Below are positions 9,721-19,743 of a DNA stretch of 19,743 nucleotides, one piece after another. The notes beneath the pieces were generated by a model. That model was not told the origin of the DNA, made no database searches, and saw only the letters and a list, made by a program, of their open reading frames with translations. The position numbers and the translations under genes are program-made. Numbering within the stretch: position 1 is the first letter of the stretch; every line of letters begins with the position of its first letter. The DNA is from Chloroflexota bacterium (GTDB lineage: Bacteria; Chloroflexota; Dehalococcoidia; Lucifugimonadales; UBA826), in contig PBDP01000004.1 of assembly GCA_002718095.1 (NCBI GenBank), positions 283,015 to 302,757 of the forward strand. The letters run 5' to 3'.

Positions 9721-11397
9721 TCATCCGCCTTTATTTGCCTTAGACCAAGAGTCTCTTAATGAAACAGTTCTATTAAAAACCAACGTATTTGAATTAGAAG
9801 ATTTATTATCTAAACAGAAATATCCTAGTCTTTCAAATTGATATTTAATTGTGCTGTCTGATTCTTTTAGTGAAGGCTCTAATTGAGCATTTTTTTTGAT
9901 TTCTAAAGAATGAGGATTTAATACGTTTTCTAAATTTGAATCATCAGATATGTCAGGGTTGGGATCAGAGCAAAGTCTGTCGTATAAGCGAACTTCGGAT
10001 TGTATAGAATGCTTGCTGCTGACCCAATGGATAGTTCCTTTTGGTTTCCTGTTGTCTGGTGCTGATCCTCCTTTTGTTTTCGGGTCGTATGTACATATCA
10101 ACTCTACAGGCTCACCTGTGAGCTCATCTTTTATGACCTCTTTGCATTTTATGAAATATGCATATCTTAGTCTAACTTCTTCTCCAATAGATAAGCGTTT
10201 GAATTTCTTACTAGGATTTTCCATAAAGTCTTCTTTTTCTATGTACAATTCTTTAGAAAATGGGATTTCTCTTGTTCCAAACGATTCGTCTTGAGGGTTA
10301 TTTTGAGCGATTAAATATTCGGTCTGATCTTGCGGATAATTTTCAATAGTTACTTTTAACGGGTTTATCACTGCCATCCGTCGCTCGGCTTTTTTATTTA
10401 AATCTTCTCGTACGCAATGTTCTAATAATGCTATATCAACAACGTTCTCTCTTTTTGTAATTCCTACTCTTCTACAAAAATCTTTGATTGAATCTGATGT
10501 GAACCCGAGTCTTCGCATACCAGATATAGTTGGCATTCGGGGGTCGTCCCATCCATCAACGTATTTCATTTCCACTAATTTAAGAAGATTTCTTTTGCTT
10601 AAAATTGTGTGGCTCATCAAAACTTTACCGAATTCTATTTGCCTAGATGGGAATACGTTCAATTCATTAATAAACCAATCATATAAGGGTCTATGATCTA
10701 CGTATTCCATGGTACATAGTGAGTGAGTCACTTTTTCAATAGAATCAGATAATCCGTGGGCAAAATCATACATTGGATAAATACTCCAATCTTCCCCAGT
10801 TTGGTGATGTTGAGTTTTAATGATTCTGTACATAACAGGATCTCGCATATTCATATTTGGTGATCCCATGTCTATTTTAGCTCTTAATACGTGAGCTCCT
10901 TCTTCATATTCTCCTTTTTTCATACGTTCTAATAAGTCTATATTTTCATCAATGCTTCTATTCCTGTATGGGCTATTTTTACCGGGTTCGGTGAGAGTTC
11001 CTCTATTTTCCCTGATCTCGTTTTGCGTTTGAGAATCAACATATGCTTTTTTAAGTTTTATTAAAGTGATTGCATGTGAATATAATTGTTGAAAGTAATT
11101 TGAAGCATAAAATTCGGTATCACCCCATTCGAATCCAAGCCATTGGATATCTTTTTTTATCGATTCTATAAATTCAGTGGTTTCTTTCACCGGATTTGTG
11201 TCGTCAAATCTTAGATTACATTTTGCGTATTCTATTTCTTTAGCGATTCCGAAATTCAGACATATTGATGTAGCATGCCCTATATGAAGATACCCATTTG
11301 GCTCTGGAGGGAACCTAGTTACTACCTCAGATAATCCTTTTTCAACATCTGATCTAATTATTTCGCGTATAAAGTCTTCAGTATTAGTTTCATTCAT
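9721..11397 (-). CDS. glnS: Glutaminyl-tRNA synthetase
   Basis: A 558-residue class I synthetase that charges tRNA-Gln with glutamine in the cytoplasm. Its motifs match the well-known E. coli enzyme (554 residues) along the whole length. PPEPNGYLHIGHA is present with HIGH at 38-41, then LRFDDTNPVKE, RGTLTEPGKNSPYR, YPMYDFAHGLSDS and the KMSKS-equivalent LSKRNL near residue 270. The C-terminal anticodon-binding barrels end with GYFCLDNK and VFNRTVSLRDSW. The start lacks a strong ribosome-binding site; an AAGGT is about 19 bases off, so coupling to orn 22 bases upstream is plausible. Bacterial glnS derives from eukaryotic-type GlnRS, and many bacteria instead use GluRS plus the GatCAB amidotransferase. 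Its presence implies direct Gln-tRNA formation here. A paralogous GluRS is excluded by the GlnRS-specific C-terminal domain. Confidence 0.97.
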   Translation of the reverse strand: MNETNTEDFIREIIRSDVEKGLSEVVTRFPPEPNGYLHIGHATSICLNFGIAKEIEYAKCNLRFDDTNPVKETTEFIESIKKDIQWLGFEWGDTEFYASNYFQQLYSHAITLIKLKKAYVDSQTQNEIRENRGTLTEPGKNSPYRNRSIDENIDLLERMKKGEYEEGAHVLRAKIDMGSPNMNMRDPVMYRIIKTQHHQTGEDWSIYPMYDFAHGLSDSIEKVTHSLCTMEYVDHRPLYDWFINELNVFPSRQIEFGKVLMSHTILSKRNLLKLVEMKYVDGWDDPRMPTISGMRRLGFTSDSIKDFCRRVGITKRENVVDIALLEHCVREDLNKKAERRMAVINPLKVTIENYPQDQTEYLIAQNNPQDESFGTREIPFSKELYIEKEDFMENPSKKFKRLSIGEEVRLRYAYFIKCKEVIKDELTGEPVELICTYDPKTKGGSAPDNRKPKGTIHWVSSKHSIQSEVRLYDRLCSDPNPDISDDSNLENVLNPHSLEIKKNAQLEPSLKESDSTIKYQFERLGYFCLDNKSSNSNTLVFNRTVSLRDSWSKANKGG

Positions 11398-16347: not shown

Positions 16348-18009
16348 TTATAGAGAGCCATCTATTGAGATATTTAGTAAGTAGGGTTTTCCTGATTTTA
16401 TAGCTTTGTCTAATGCTGGTTTTATTTGATTAGGACTAGTAATATCTTCACATTCTAATCCCATACCTTTAGCTATATTGCACATATTAATAGGTGTTTT
16501 GAAATCAGAATGAGGTAGCATTTCTCCTACAGGTTCTGTTTCTCCTAATAGCTCTGTTTGGTATATTTTGTAATTTACTTTTAATACTCGATACATTCCG
16601 TTATTACATATTATAAATACACAAGGTATATTATCGTTTGCTGCACTCCATAAACCTTGAATTGTCATCATAGCGCTGCCATCTCCGATAACTCCAATAA
16701 CAGGTCTGTCAGGGAACGCACATTTTGTCCCTATAGTTGCTCCAATTCCTCCTCCGATAGATTGCCCTCGGACGCCTCTAATATCATCCCGTTTTACGGA
16801 TTTGAAATTATTCCTAAAGTGAACTCTATTGCTGATCGAATCATCAACTATGATCGCGTTATCAGGTATAGATTGTGCTAATTCGTACATCATTCTTGCC
16901 GGGGGCATAGGGATGCTGTCCCACATTTCTTCTGTGCTCTTTTTGTATGATTTTTTTTGGCTTTCAGATTTTATGTTAATTTCAGTAATCCTATTTGTGA
17001 CATGTTTTTTGTCTAGGTTATTGGATAATGAATTTATAAGAGCTCTTAATCCTGTTTTGCAATTTGATACTATTCCTATATCAGTTGGTTCCGAACGGCC
17101 TACTTTATCGTATACAGGATCTATATGGATAAGCTTTGTGTTTTGATCAAGTATTACATCTCCCCAGTAAAAAAGTTCTTCAAAAGTTTCCATTCCCACT
17201 GTTAGGACAAGGTCATATTCTTTTAGATCTTCTCTGTGATTTTTATTTCTCAGAGAATGTACTCCCATATATTGAGGGTGTGTAGAAGGGAAAGACACTT
17301 CTGCACCACGGGACTGGTATACAGTAAACCCTACTAGTTCTGATAATTGGACAGCTTCATCTAGTGCATCATCATCGGAGACTCTATCTCCAACCATTAA
17401 TAAAGGATTTTCAGCTTGTTTTATAAGTTTTGCAGCTTCTTCAATAGCCTTAGGGTCGGGAGATACTAGATCATAAGTCTTTGTTGACGGTAAAATATTC
17501 ATATCTGCAATCCCTTCCAAAGCGTTTGCAGTAAACCCTACATAGACTGGGCCTTTTGGGTGGCTATTTGCTTCATTAAAAGCTCTTCTTAATACGCTAG
17601 GTATTTGATCCGGCAAATTCAATTCAACAGCCCATTTTGTTACAGGTCTAACTAATTCTGCTAAATCTGTTTTGTCTTCATTTATTTTCCTTGCATCATA
17701 ATTTGCTGATGTTATTACCATTGGTGTTCCGGTGTTTAAGGCATCTAACATTAAAGCTATACCGTTTGCTAATCCACTATCAACATGTAGGCTGACAAAA
17801 GAGGGTTTATTTGTTGATCTGGCATATGATTCTCCCATTCCTATCGCTACACTTTCTTGAAGTGCCATGATGTATTTGAATTCTGGATATTCTCCTAACA
17901 TATCAATGAAAGGGCCTTCACTTGTACCTGGATTGCCAAATATATATTCGACACCTTCAGCTTTTAGCATTTCTAATATGGCTTTTTTGCCGGGCATTAT
18001 TGAAGACAT
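16348..18009 (-). CDS. ThDP-dependent enzyme, benzoylformate decarboxylase-like
   Basis: A 553-residue three-domain thiamine diphosphate enzyme of the decarboxylase/acetolactate-synthase superfamily. The Pyr domain begins with FGNPGTSEGPF at 24-34 and LQESVAIGM with the cofactor-activating Glu at E52. SLHVDSGLANG carries H75. A central domain with GDRVSDDDAL follows, and the PP domain has IGDGSAMMTIQGLWSA with NNGMYRVL, the GDG...NN magnesium-ThDP motif. The N-terminal third closely tracks benzoylformate decarboxylase MdlC, where Ser26, Glu47 and His70 correspond to T29, E52 and H75 here. The second catalytic histidine of MdlC (His281) appears replaced by Leu in the METFEELFYWGD segment. A 2-keto acid decarboxylase, lyase or oxalyl-CoA/phosphonopyruvate-type reaction is likely, but MdlC itself is uncertain. 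AAGGA lies six bases before the ATG. It has a 29-base element upstream shared with the next gene. Confidence 0.88.
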   Translation of the reverse strand: MSSIMPGKKAILEMLKAEGVEYIFGNPGTSEGPFIDMLGEYPEFKYIMALQESVAIGMGESYARSTNKPSFVSLHVDSGLANGIALMLDALNTGTPMVITSANYDARKINEDKTDLAELVRPVTKWAVELNLPDQIPSVLRRAFNEANSHPKGPVYVGFTANALEGIADMNILPSTKTYDLVSPDPKAIEEAAKLIKQAENPLLMVGDRVSDDDALDEAVQLSELVGFTVYQSRGAEVSFPSTHPQYMGVHSLRNKNHREDLKEYDLVLTVGMETFEELFYWGDVILDQNTKLIHIDPVYDKVGRSEPTDIGIVSNCKTGLRALINSLSNNLDKKHVTNRITEINIKSESQKKSYKKSTEEMWDSIPMPPARMMYELAQSIPDNAIIVDDSISNRVHFRNNFKSVKRDDIRGVRGQSIGGGIGATIGTKCAFPDRPVIGVIGDGSAMMTIQGLWSAANDNIPCVFIICNNGMYRVLKVNYKIYQTELLGETEPVGEMLPHSDFKTPINMCNIAKGMGLECEDITSPNQIKPALDKAIKSGKPYLLNISIDGSL

Positions 18010-18047: not shown

Positions 18048-18076
18048 AAGTTTTTAAATCCTAACACTAAAGTCAA
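18048..18076 (-). promoter_or_regulatory. Conserved upstream element, copy B (before ThDP enzyme)
   Basis: The minus strand starts with TTGAC and contains TA, TGTTAG, ATTT and AAAAC at fixed positions. It matches copy A at 18933-18961 in 23 of 29 positions. It ends 38 bases before the ATG, against 37 for copy A. A TGT plus TAGGAT could be an extended -10, but no firm -35 is visible. Confidence 0.5.
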
Positions 18077-18099
18077 GATATATATTCTTTTTATATATC
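18077..18099. repeat. 8-bp perfect inverted repeat at the end of the hydrolase gene
   Basis: GATATATA (18077-18084) and TATATATC (18092-18099) are exact inverted partners around a 7-base loop, overlapping the hydrolase stop codon by two bases and bordering element copy B. The stem is almost all A/T. No T-run follows on the minus strand, so it is not a convincing terminator; an operator or mRNA 3' hairpin are alternatives. Confidence 0.4.
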
Positions 18100-18895
18100 A
18101 AAGACTATTCAGGAAGTTGTTAATTATATGTGCACCTTTTTCAGGGTTTGTACACATCCACCAGTGGCCTTCACCGTCAATGATTCCCACTTGCGCTTGC
18201 GCCTGTTCAGCAGCTTTTCGTCCGAGTATCTCAGCAGAATATTCGTAAAAAGTTCTCATTTCTAGCATTCCGTGACTTCCAACCATTCCCCCAACATATG
18301 GATCATCAGTGGCTATTAAGGCTAGGCCAGGTTTCTCTGCAGCGCGAGCTAATCCCTTGAACATATTTCCGAGAGCTGGTTGGGCCGCTGAACGGTACAG
18401 AGAAAGTACGCATTGACCCATATCAATATTAACCCACGGGGCTATCTGTTCTGCAATTGATTTAGTCATTCCTAATGATTGAAAACGCTCAACCCAAGCT
18501 TCGTCAGTAGTATTTGCTCTTTCAGCAACCGCTTCTTCTCCAGCTCCTGGTGTCTGCCAGATCTGAGCGTTTTCATGCCAGACGTACTCAGGAGTGAAGA
18601 TACCAAGAATGTCACTAGCCCAGGAACGGATAAGCTCAGGACGTTCACAGGCAAGCCGTACAACATGACCCCCGCCCCAGTCGTGTCCAATCAAATCCAC
18701 TGGGCCTTCTATATTTTTTATTTCATTGATAAGCCAGTTTAGATAACCATCACTAGTTGCATCAAAATTATTTGGAAGAGGTGCTCCGAATCCTGGAGGA
18801 GTCAAAGTAATAATATCATCGGTGTTTAAATGAGGAATTAATTCATCCCATATTGCAGCAGTTTCTGGATTACCGTGAACTAGTACTAATGGCAT
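18098..18895 (-). CDS. Alpha/beta hydrolase with Asp nucleophile (epoxide hydrolase / dehalogenase-like)
   Basis: A 265-residue alpha/beta hydrolase. The oxyanion-hole HGNPET lies at residues 7-12, the nucleophile elbow IGHDWGGG has D72 in the G-x-Nuc-x-G position, and GHWW near the C-terminus supplies H244 as the general base. LIATDDPYVGG holds candidate acid residues. An Asp nucleophile is typical of epoxide hydrolases and haloalkane dehalogenases; here it could act on epoxides, halides or fluoroacetate-like substrates. No signal peptide is present, so it is cytoplasmic. The start ATG at 18895 has AAAGGAG at good spacing. Sampled 60-base rows of the coding sequence have 28-31 G+C (47-52%), against 11-24 in sampled neighbouring coding rows, hinting at transfer or strong codon selection. 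A conserved 29-base element sits 37 bases upstream. Confidence 0.9.
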   Translation of the reverse strand: MPLVLVHGNPETAAIWDELIPHLNTDDIITLTPPGFGAPLPNNFDATSDGYLNWLINEIKNIEGPVDLIGHDWGGGHVVRLACERPELIRSWASDILGIFTPEYVWHENAQIWQTPGAGEEAVAERANTTDEAWVERFQSLGMTKSIAEQIAPWVNIDMGQCVLSLYRSAAQPALGNMFKGLARAAEKPGLALIATDDPYVGGMVGSHGMLEMRTFYEYSAEILGRKAAEQAQAQVGIIDGEGHWWMCTNPEKGAHIINNFLNSL

Positions 18896-18932
18896 ATTTT
18901 TCTCCTTTCAGATTGTTTAAAATGTAATTCTG

Positions 18933-18961
18933 AGGTTTTAAAATACTAACATTACCGTCAA
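18933..18961 (-). promoter_or_regulatory. Conserved upstream element, copy A (before alpha/beta hydrolase)
   Basis: The minus strand begins TTGACGG and runs through TGTTAG and ATTTTAAAAC. It matches copy B (18048-18076) in 23 of 29 positions with no gaps, and lies 37 bases from the hydrolase ATG. It overlaps a hairpin at the end of the MFS gene. TGT with TAGTAT could be an extended -10 sequence, but a protein operator is equally possible. Confidence 0.5.
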
Positions 18962-18986
18962 TAAACTCACGGTTTATTTTAACGGT
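18954..18986. repeat. Inverted repeat spanning the MFS stop codon
   Basis: AATAAAC (18960-18966) pairs exactly with GTTTATT (18972-18978) around a five-base loop. A flanking ACCGT (18954-18958) pairs with ACGGT (18982-18986) past small bulges. On the minus strand it lies at the end of the exporter gene, but no T-run follows, so a terminator is only weakly supported. Confidence 0.4.
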
Positions 18987-19743
18987 CGCCGGTATAAAGA
19001 TATTATGGATCCTACTATGCATAATATTCCTATGTATAAAAATGCTCTATCCATTCCTAATATAAAAACGTTTAACAGATTAGGATCAGATGATTCTGTT
19101 ACTGATGAAAGATCAGGGTAAAACCCATTTGATTTCATTATTGTTGTAATTATTAATACAGATATTGGAATAGAAAGTAGGTTTCCTAAATTTCTCGTGA
19201 GATTAATTAGTCCAATAATAGATCCTCTTTGTGATTGTGTGACCACATTTAATATCGTGCTATTGCTTGGAGCATAGAAGCCTCCAACTCCAGACATTAC
19301 AGGTATAACTCCAATATATGGAAGCCATTCATTAGATTCTGAATTTAATGTAGATAATATAAATAGTCCTATTGATGTCCATAGTAAACAGCCAGCGCTA
19401 AACCATCTTGATCCGAATTTGTCTGAAAGTCTTCCTGTTATTGGGCTCATTATTCCCATTGCTATTCCTCCAGGAACTAATACTGTTCCAATTCGTTCAG
19501 TAGAGAATAGGAGAACATATTTAAGGTAAAAAGGTAATATGAACGGTACGGAAGACATAGCTATAAAAGCTGTTAACGTTGCAATTACAGATAATGTGAA
19601 CACTGGTATTTTAAATAGTTTTATATTTAATACTGGGTGATTTGCTCGCACTGATTTTATGATAAATAGGATTATTAATAGTATTGATACAGTTAATAAA
19701 GTTATTGATATTGCAGAATTTAATCCTGTCCTTGAGGCAATTG
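18974..19743 (-). CDS. MFS exporter, DHA2-type (EmrB/QacA-like), N-terminal part outside window
   Basis: The C-terminal 256 codons of an MFS transporter; the frame stays open to the right edge, so the start lies beyond the window. A GTG at 19651 inside it is not a likely start, because upstream in-frame residues continue a helix. After one helix (LLTVSILLIILFIIKS) comes the loop ANHPVLNIKLFKIPVFTLS, typical of 14-helix DHA2 exporters between helices 8 and 9. The stretches GIAMGIMSPITGRLSDKFGSRW (motif A repeat), PVMSGVGGFYAPSNSTIL, and the final helix with GILCIVGSIISL follow. Such proteins are usually H+-coupled drug or metabolite exporters. The alpha/beta hydrolase follows 78 bases later, with an inverted repeat at its stop. 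The substrate is unknown. Confidence 0.88.
   Translation of the reverse strand, partial: IASRTGLNSAISITLLTVSILLIILFIIKSVRANHPVLNIKLFKIPVFTLSVIATLTAFIAMSSVPFILPFYLKYVLLFSTERIGTVLVPGGIAMGIMSPITGRLSDKFGSRWFSAGCLLWTSIGLFILSTLNSESNEWLPYIGVIPVMSGVGGFYAPSNSTILNVVTQSQRGSIIGLINLTRNLGNLLSIPISVLIITTIMKSNGFYPDLSSVTESSDPNLLNVFILGMDRAFLYIGILCIVGSIISLYRRPLK

Follow-up and report, generated by a model that had tools for sequence, protein, structure and literature searches.

Two unusually similar promoter-like elements precede neighbouring hydrolase and ThDP enzyme genes in a Chloroflexota bacterium

The locus described here raises the question of why two neighbouring genes are preceded, at almost the same distance from their start codons, by nearly the same 29 bases. 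The window (the whole stretch of DNA that was analysed, 19,743 nucleotides; contig C4, positions 283015-302757) belongs to a genome of 1.44 Mb in 10 contigs that is 94.6% complete and has a G+C content of 34% in the sampled stretches, and its bacterium is probably a member of the marine SAR202 group. An MFS transporter, an alpha/beta hydrolase and a ThDP enzyme are encoded in this order in a row on the minus strand, with intergenic gaps of 78 bases (MFS-hydrolase) and 88 bases (hydrolase-ThDP). The ATG codons of the hydrolase (18895) and of the ThDP enzyme (18009) both follow a good ribosome-binding site, and the start residue of each protein agrees with its orthologues. The following features are referred to below.

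18974..19743, minus strand: MFS transporter gene, 3' part; the upstream gene of the tandem, which runs on beyond the window
18098..18895, minus strand: alpha/beta hydrolase gene, 265 aa; Pfam Abhydrolase_6; ATG start with the ribosome-binding site AAAGGAG
16348..18009, minus strand: ThDP enzyme gene, 553 aa; closest NCBIfam family benzoylformate decarboxylase, not reaching the cut-off
18961-18933, minus strand: 29-base element, copy 1, TTGACGGTAATGTTAGTATTTTAAAACCT, before the hydrolase; candidate -35 box TTGACG, 17-base spacer GTAATGTTAGTATTTTA, candidate weak -10 box AAACCT
18076-18048, minus strand: 29-base element, copy 2, TTGACTTTAGTGTTAGGATTTAAAAACTT, before the ThDP enzyme; candidate -35 box TTGACT, 17-base spacer TTAGTGTTAGGATTTAA, candidate weak -10 box AAACTT

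The two 29-mers had been reported at these coordinates in the initial annotation, and direct comparison confirmed that they align without gaps and are identical at 23 of 29 positions. The copies lie 885 bases apart and end 37 bases (copy 1) and 38 bases (copy 2) ahead of the ATG of their gene; these distances and the lengths of the two gaps had also been given correctly.

To judge how unusual this similarity is, 269 upstream regions were collected from stretches of this genome that total 618 kb (43% of its length), which yielded 36,046 pairs. The pair studied here was the only one to reach 23 of 29 identities in register within 3 bases, while 22 of 29 occurred in six pairs. When matches were weighted by base frequency, the pair ranked second, behind a mirror-image palindrome common to two divergent genes; the empirical per-pair frequency was 5.5e-5. 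Among the adjacent tandem pairs (approximately 66 in the sample, with the pair itself entered twice) it scored 23.1 versus 14.4 for the next distinct pair; adjacent regions are generally no more similar in sequence than distant ones (medians 7.2 and 7.3). None of 200 dinucleotide shuffles of the window matched the pair pattern, which was itself derived from the pair. The chance expectation amounts to approximately 0.4% for the sample and approximately 1% for the genome, with no correction for the large number of windows that were read. The similarity of the two copies is thus probably real.

The position of the elements suggested a comparison with the promoters of the same genome. A promoter model was fitted by expectation maximization (EM) to the 269 upstream regions, with the sigma-70 consensus as its starting point and the last 20 bases, which hold the ribosome-binding site, left out. 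The model converged on a -35 box TTGA(C)a, spacer lengths that peak at 17 (0.53) and a -10 box TAtaaT located mostly 30-50 bases before the ATG. A model-free count detected TAnnnT at spacer 17 in 6 of 27 TTGAC cases, compared with 0-3 at other spacings, and TTGAC itself is enriched upstream of genes (37 observed versus 22 expected), most commonly 60-69 bases before the ATG. In both copies the best fit of the model starts at the TTGAC of the element, namely TTGACG-17-AAACCT at 43 bases before the ATG for copy 1 and TTGACT-16/17-AAA(A)CT at 45/44 bases for copy 2. With a spacer of 17, the whole 29-mer is accounted for as -35 box, spacer and -10 box (6+17+6), i.e. TTGACn-N17-AAACnT. The TTGAC -35 box, the 17-base spacer and a -10 box with A at position 2 and T at position 6 are shared with promoters of the primary sigma factor (sigma-70/SigA), and the distance of 43-44 bases to the ATG fits the layout learned from this genome. 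Each -35 box agrees with TTGACA at 5 of 6 positions, whereas the -10 boxes are weak, with AAACCT and AAACTT matching TATAAT at 2 of 6 positions. Ranks of 57th and 95th of 269 in the model mark the two promoters as unremarkable, and neither was among the sites listed by a simple consensus scanner. We infer from this layout that both 29-mers serve as promoters of the primary (sigma-70/SigA-type) RNA polymerase, in which case the MFS-hydrolase-ThDP row would contain separate promoters for the hydrolase and for the ThDP enzyme.

The register of the -10 box is uncertain, and either AAACnT or an extended -10 box (TGnTAnnnT) may be used. The candidates for the latter are:

18943..18951, minus strand: alternative extended -10 box in copy 1, TGTTAGTAT; scored by the EM model below the TTGAC-17 reading
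18058..18066, minus strand: alternative extended -10 box in copy 2, TGTTAGGAT; read from the sequence

These boxes, TGTTAG(T/G)AT, match the -10 consensus at 4 of 6 positions, lie 53-54 bases before the ATG and come without a good -35 box. In the upstream regions of this genome, TGnTAnnnT peaks 30-59 bases before the ATG. Literature searches on promoters of SAR202 or Dehalococcoidia returned nothing useful, and little information on promoters seems to exist for this uncultured lineage; the -35/-10 model derived from the genome is a small useful by-product of the analysis.

A primary sigma factor does not demand that the spacers of two promoters resemble each other. The spacer of the element (TAnTGTTAGnATTT) is nevertheless identical at 13 of 17 positions between the copies, a degree of likeness in register that is reached by approximately 6e-5 of upstream pairs. 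As this goes beyond the needs of a promoter, it is proposed that the spacers either share a site of one regulator that overlaps both promoters or descend from one copied promoter. We hold with roughly even confidence that the elements are two primary-sigma promoters with alike spacers, most likely sharing a regulator site or a common origin. The initial annotation had suggested a shared promoter or operator that makes the two genes a co-regulated unit. The promoter half of this suggestion is upheld by the exact -35/17/-10 layout, the usual distance to the ATG and the unusual likeness of the pair, while for the operator and co-regulated unit, as for a common origin, the likeness of the spacers would be the entire case.

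Further copies of the element were searched for in the whole genome. With up to 3 mismatches to the 29-mer only the two known sites were found (reversed control: 0), so that a genome-wide motif or regulon was rejected. The 17-base core gave 136 matches across the genome with up to 3 mismatches, no excess over the 150 in the control, and with one mismatch it was not matched outside the pair. Within 100 kb surrounding the window, the runner-up site scored 38 versus 52, and TTGAC-N5-TGTTAG was confined to these two places in the 618 kb of the genome. Scattered single Ns were observed in genes of the assembly (X in the translations), for example at 302600-306300 of contig C4 and elsewhere. They are probably polymorphic positions and can mask exact pattern matches, so that an occasional site could be concealed. 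Among 97 relatives, a single match to the element was detected; it is located inside an ABC transporter ATPase gene and was taken as a coding chance hit.

Conservation ahead of orthologous genes, on which the initial annotation had staked its proposal beforehand, was absent, though only distant orthologues were compared. Among named relatives, the hydrolase is closest (77-80% identity) to proteins of the Dehalococcoidia/Chloroflexi metagenome assemblies UBA2979 and RS381, which places the bacterium in the Dehalococcoidia; the gene neighbours differ at these orthologues. The whole-genome search detected a full-length hydrolase orthologue in one relative only (G003, 64-65% identity), in which neither hydrolase copy is located on the contig carrying its best ThDP match. 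The nearest relatives of the ThDP enzyme among the genomes compared share approximately 72% identity over the full length. Upstream of five hydrolase relatives (L075-L078, L046) matches to the element were no better than in shuffles, and upstream of approximately 27 ThDP homologues they stayed at shuffle level, the G+C-rich L029 merely equalling its shuffle maximum. All of the about 30 upstream regions compared come from outside the own genus and therefore provide a weak test of recent function. A conserved footprint was rejected, as the element is missing before the hydrolase orthologues and ThDP homologues and the gene order around the hydrolase differs.

Repressors of the TetR or MarR type have operators placed between the -35 and -10 boxes, and a common sequence over the spacers of two adjacent promoters resembles this arrangement. 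Unlike such operators, the element has no significant dyad, no recognised regulator gene nearby and no further sites. The best dyad in the element, TnTTGAC-N6-GTTAGnA, was matched by 31.5% of shuffles, and a dyad operator was rejected because it did not rise above them. No regulator gene was recognised by inspection of open reading frames in the window and approximately 11 kb beyond or by family scans on four proteins. A shared regulator of both promoters is speculative. One such arrangement, which we consider rather unlikely, would be a lineage-specific regulator that is encoded elsewhere and binds only these two spacers, forming a catabolic unit of two promoters and one operator in this genus only. 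On the sequence evidence, co-regulation of the hydrolase and the ThDP enzyme is plausible. Should both elements be promoters and have a site in common, co-expression of the hydrolase with the ThDP decarboxylase-like enzyme would be probable and would hint at one pathway.

The likeness could also be a coincidence picked by eye between independent AT-rich promoter regions that serve the same sigma factor and have the -35 box and an AT-rich stretch in common, all further likeness being accidental. The six unrelated pairs with 22 of 29 identities in register place the observed value in the tail of a continuous distribution, neighbouring upstream regions are no more alike in general, and a third copy and conservation are both absent. 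Since the scan read very many windows, chance remains a live rival; against it stands the per-pair frequency (approximately 5e-5), which together with the adjacency of the genes leads to the expectation of approximately 0.4-1% for the sample or genome given above, and we regard coincidence as possible though somewhat unlikely. Two ordinary promoters that are unusually similar in sequence are most likely overall.

Alternatively, each copy could supply the 3' arm of a stem-loop that closes the gene before it, with a few T residues after the stem; the copies would then be a weak terminator or mRNA 3'-end structure that recurs behind two genes. Inverted repeats touching the previous stop codon at each copy had been noted in the initial annotation and were recovered here as hairpins that span or touch both stops:

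18943..18995, minus strand: imperfect hairpin at the MFS stop codon; its 3' arm enters copy 1; z about -2.0
18058..18113, minus strand: hairpin at the hydrolase stop codon; its 3' arm enters copy 2; z about -2.4 to -2.9

The folding energy is -14.3 kcal/mol at each of the two stop codons, which puts them in the most stable 4% of the 114 stop regions compared, and in both copies the stem stops within the element, immediately ahead of TTT. These hairpins resemble intrinsic terminators in having a stem close to the stop codon with TTT behind it, but the run comprises just 3 T, the two stems differ in sequence, the z values reach only -2.0 and -2.9 (the weaker one being attained by 7% of stop regions) and a search of Rfam gave no match. 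Across the 618 kb of the genome, hairpins were not enriched near stop codons relative to coding controls (mean z -0.23 versus -0.22), a sign that intrinsic terminators may be little used by this genome. A terminator would also leave the equal distance to the next ATG unexplained. We consider this explanation improbable and treat the hairpins as incidental or weak terminators. A dispersed or mobile small repeat of the REP or MITE kind would account for two nearby copies at a distance of 885 bases, but there are only two copies in 1.44 Mb, the likeness is limited to approximately 29 bases and the 97 relatives contain nothing similar apart from the one coding hit. Such a repeat is very improbable and was rejected on account of the two genomic sites.

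The locus otherwise represents ordinary bacterial gene regulation and, as the element is found nowhere else in the genome or as a non-coding match in relatives, it is of minor interest. Other candidate operators were observed in the course of the comparisons. In a related genus (g2; L016, L018, L019, L021), a palindrome-like stretch CGGCATATTAGCATGA...(A/G)ATTGCCG is located between two divergent ThDP-enzyme genes. This stretch is conserved in four aligned loci at approximately 90-45 bases before the ATG of the ThDP gene and makes a stronger operator candidate than the element of the window; it was not seen upstream of the ThDP gene of the window. At L100, a near-perfect palindrome, TCCATCACGGTCGCGCCACTGTAATTGAATT, is common to the upstream regions of divergent genes starting at 11013 and 11244 and is possibly an operator or a structured element.
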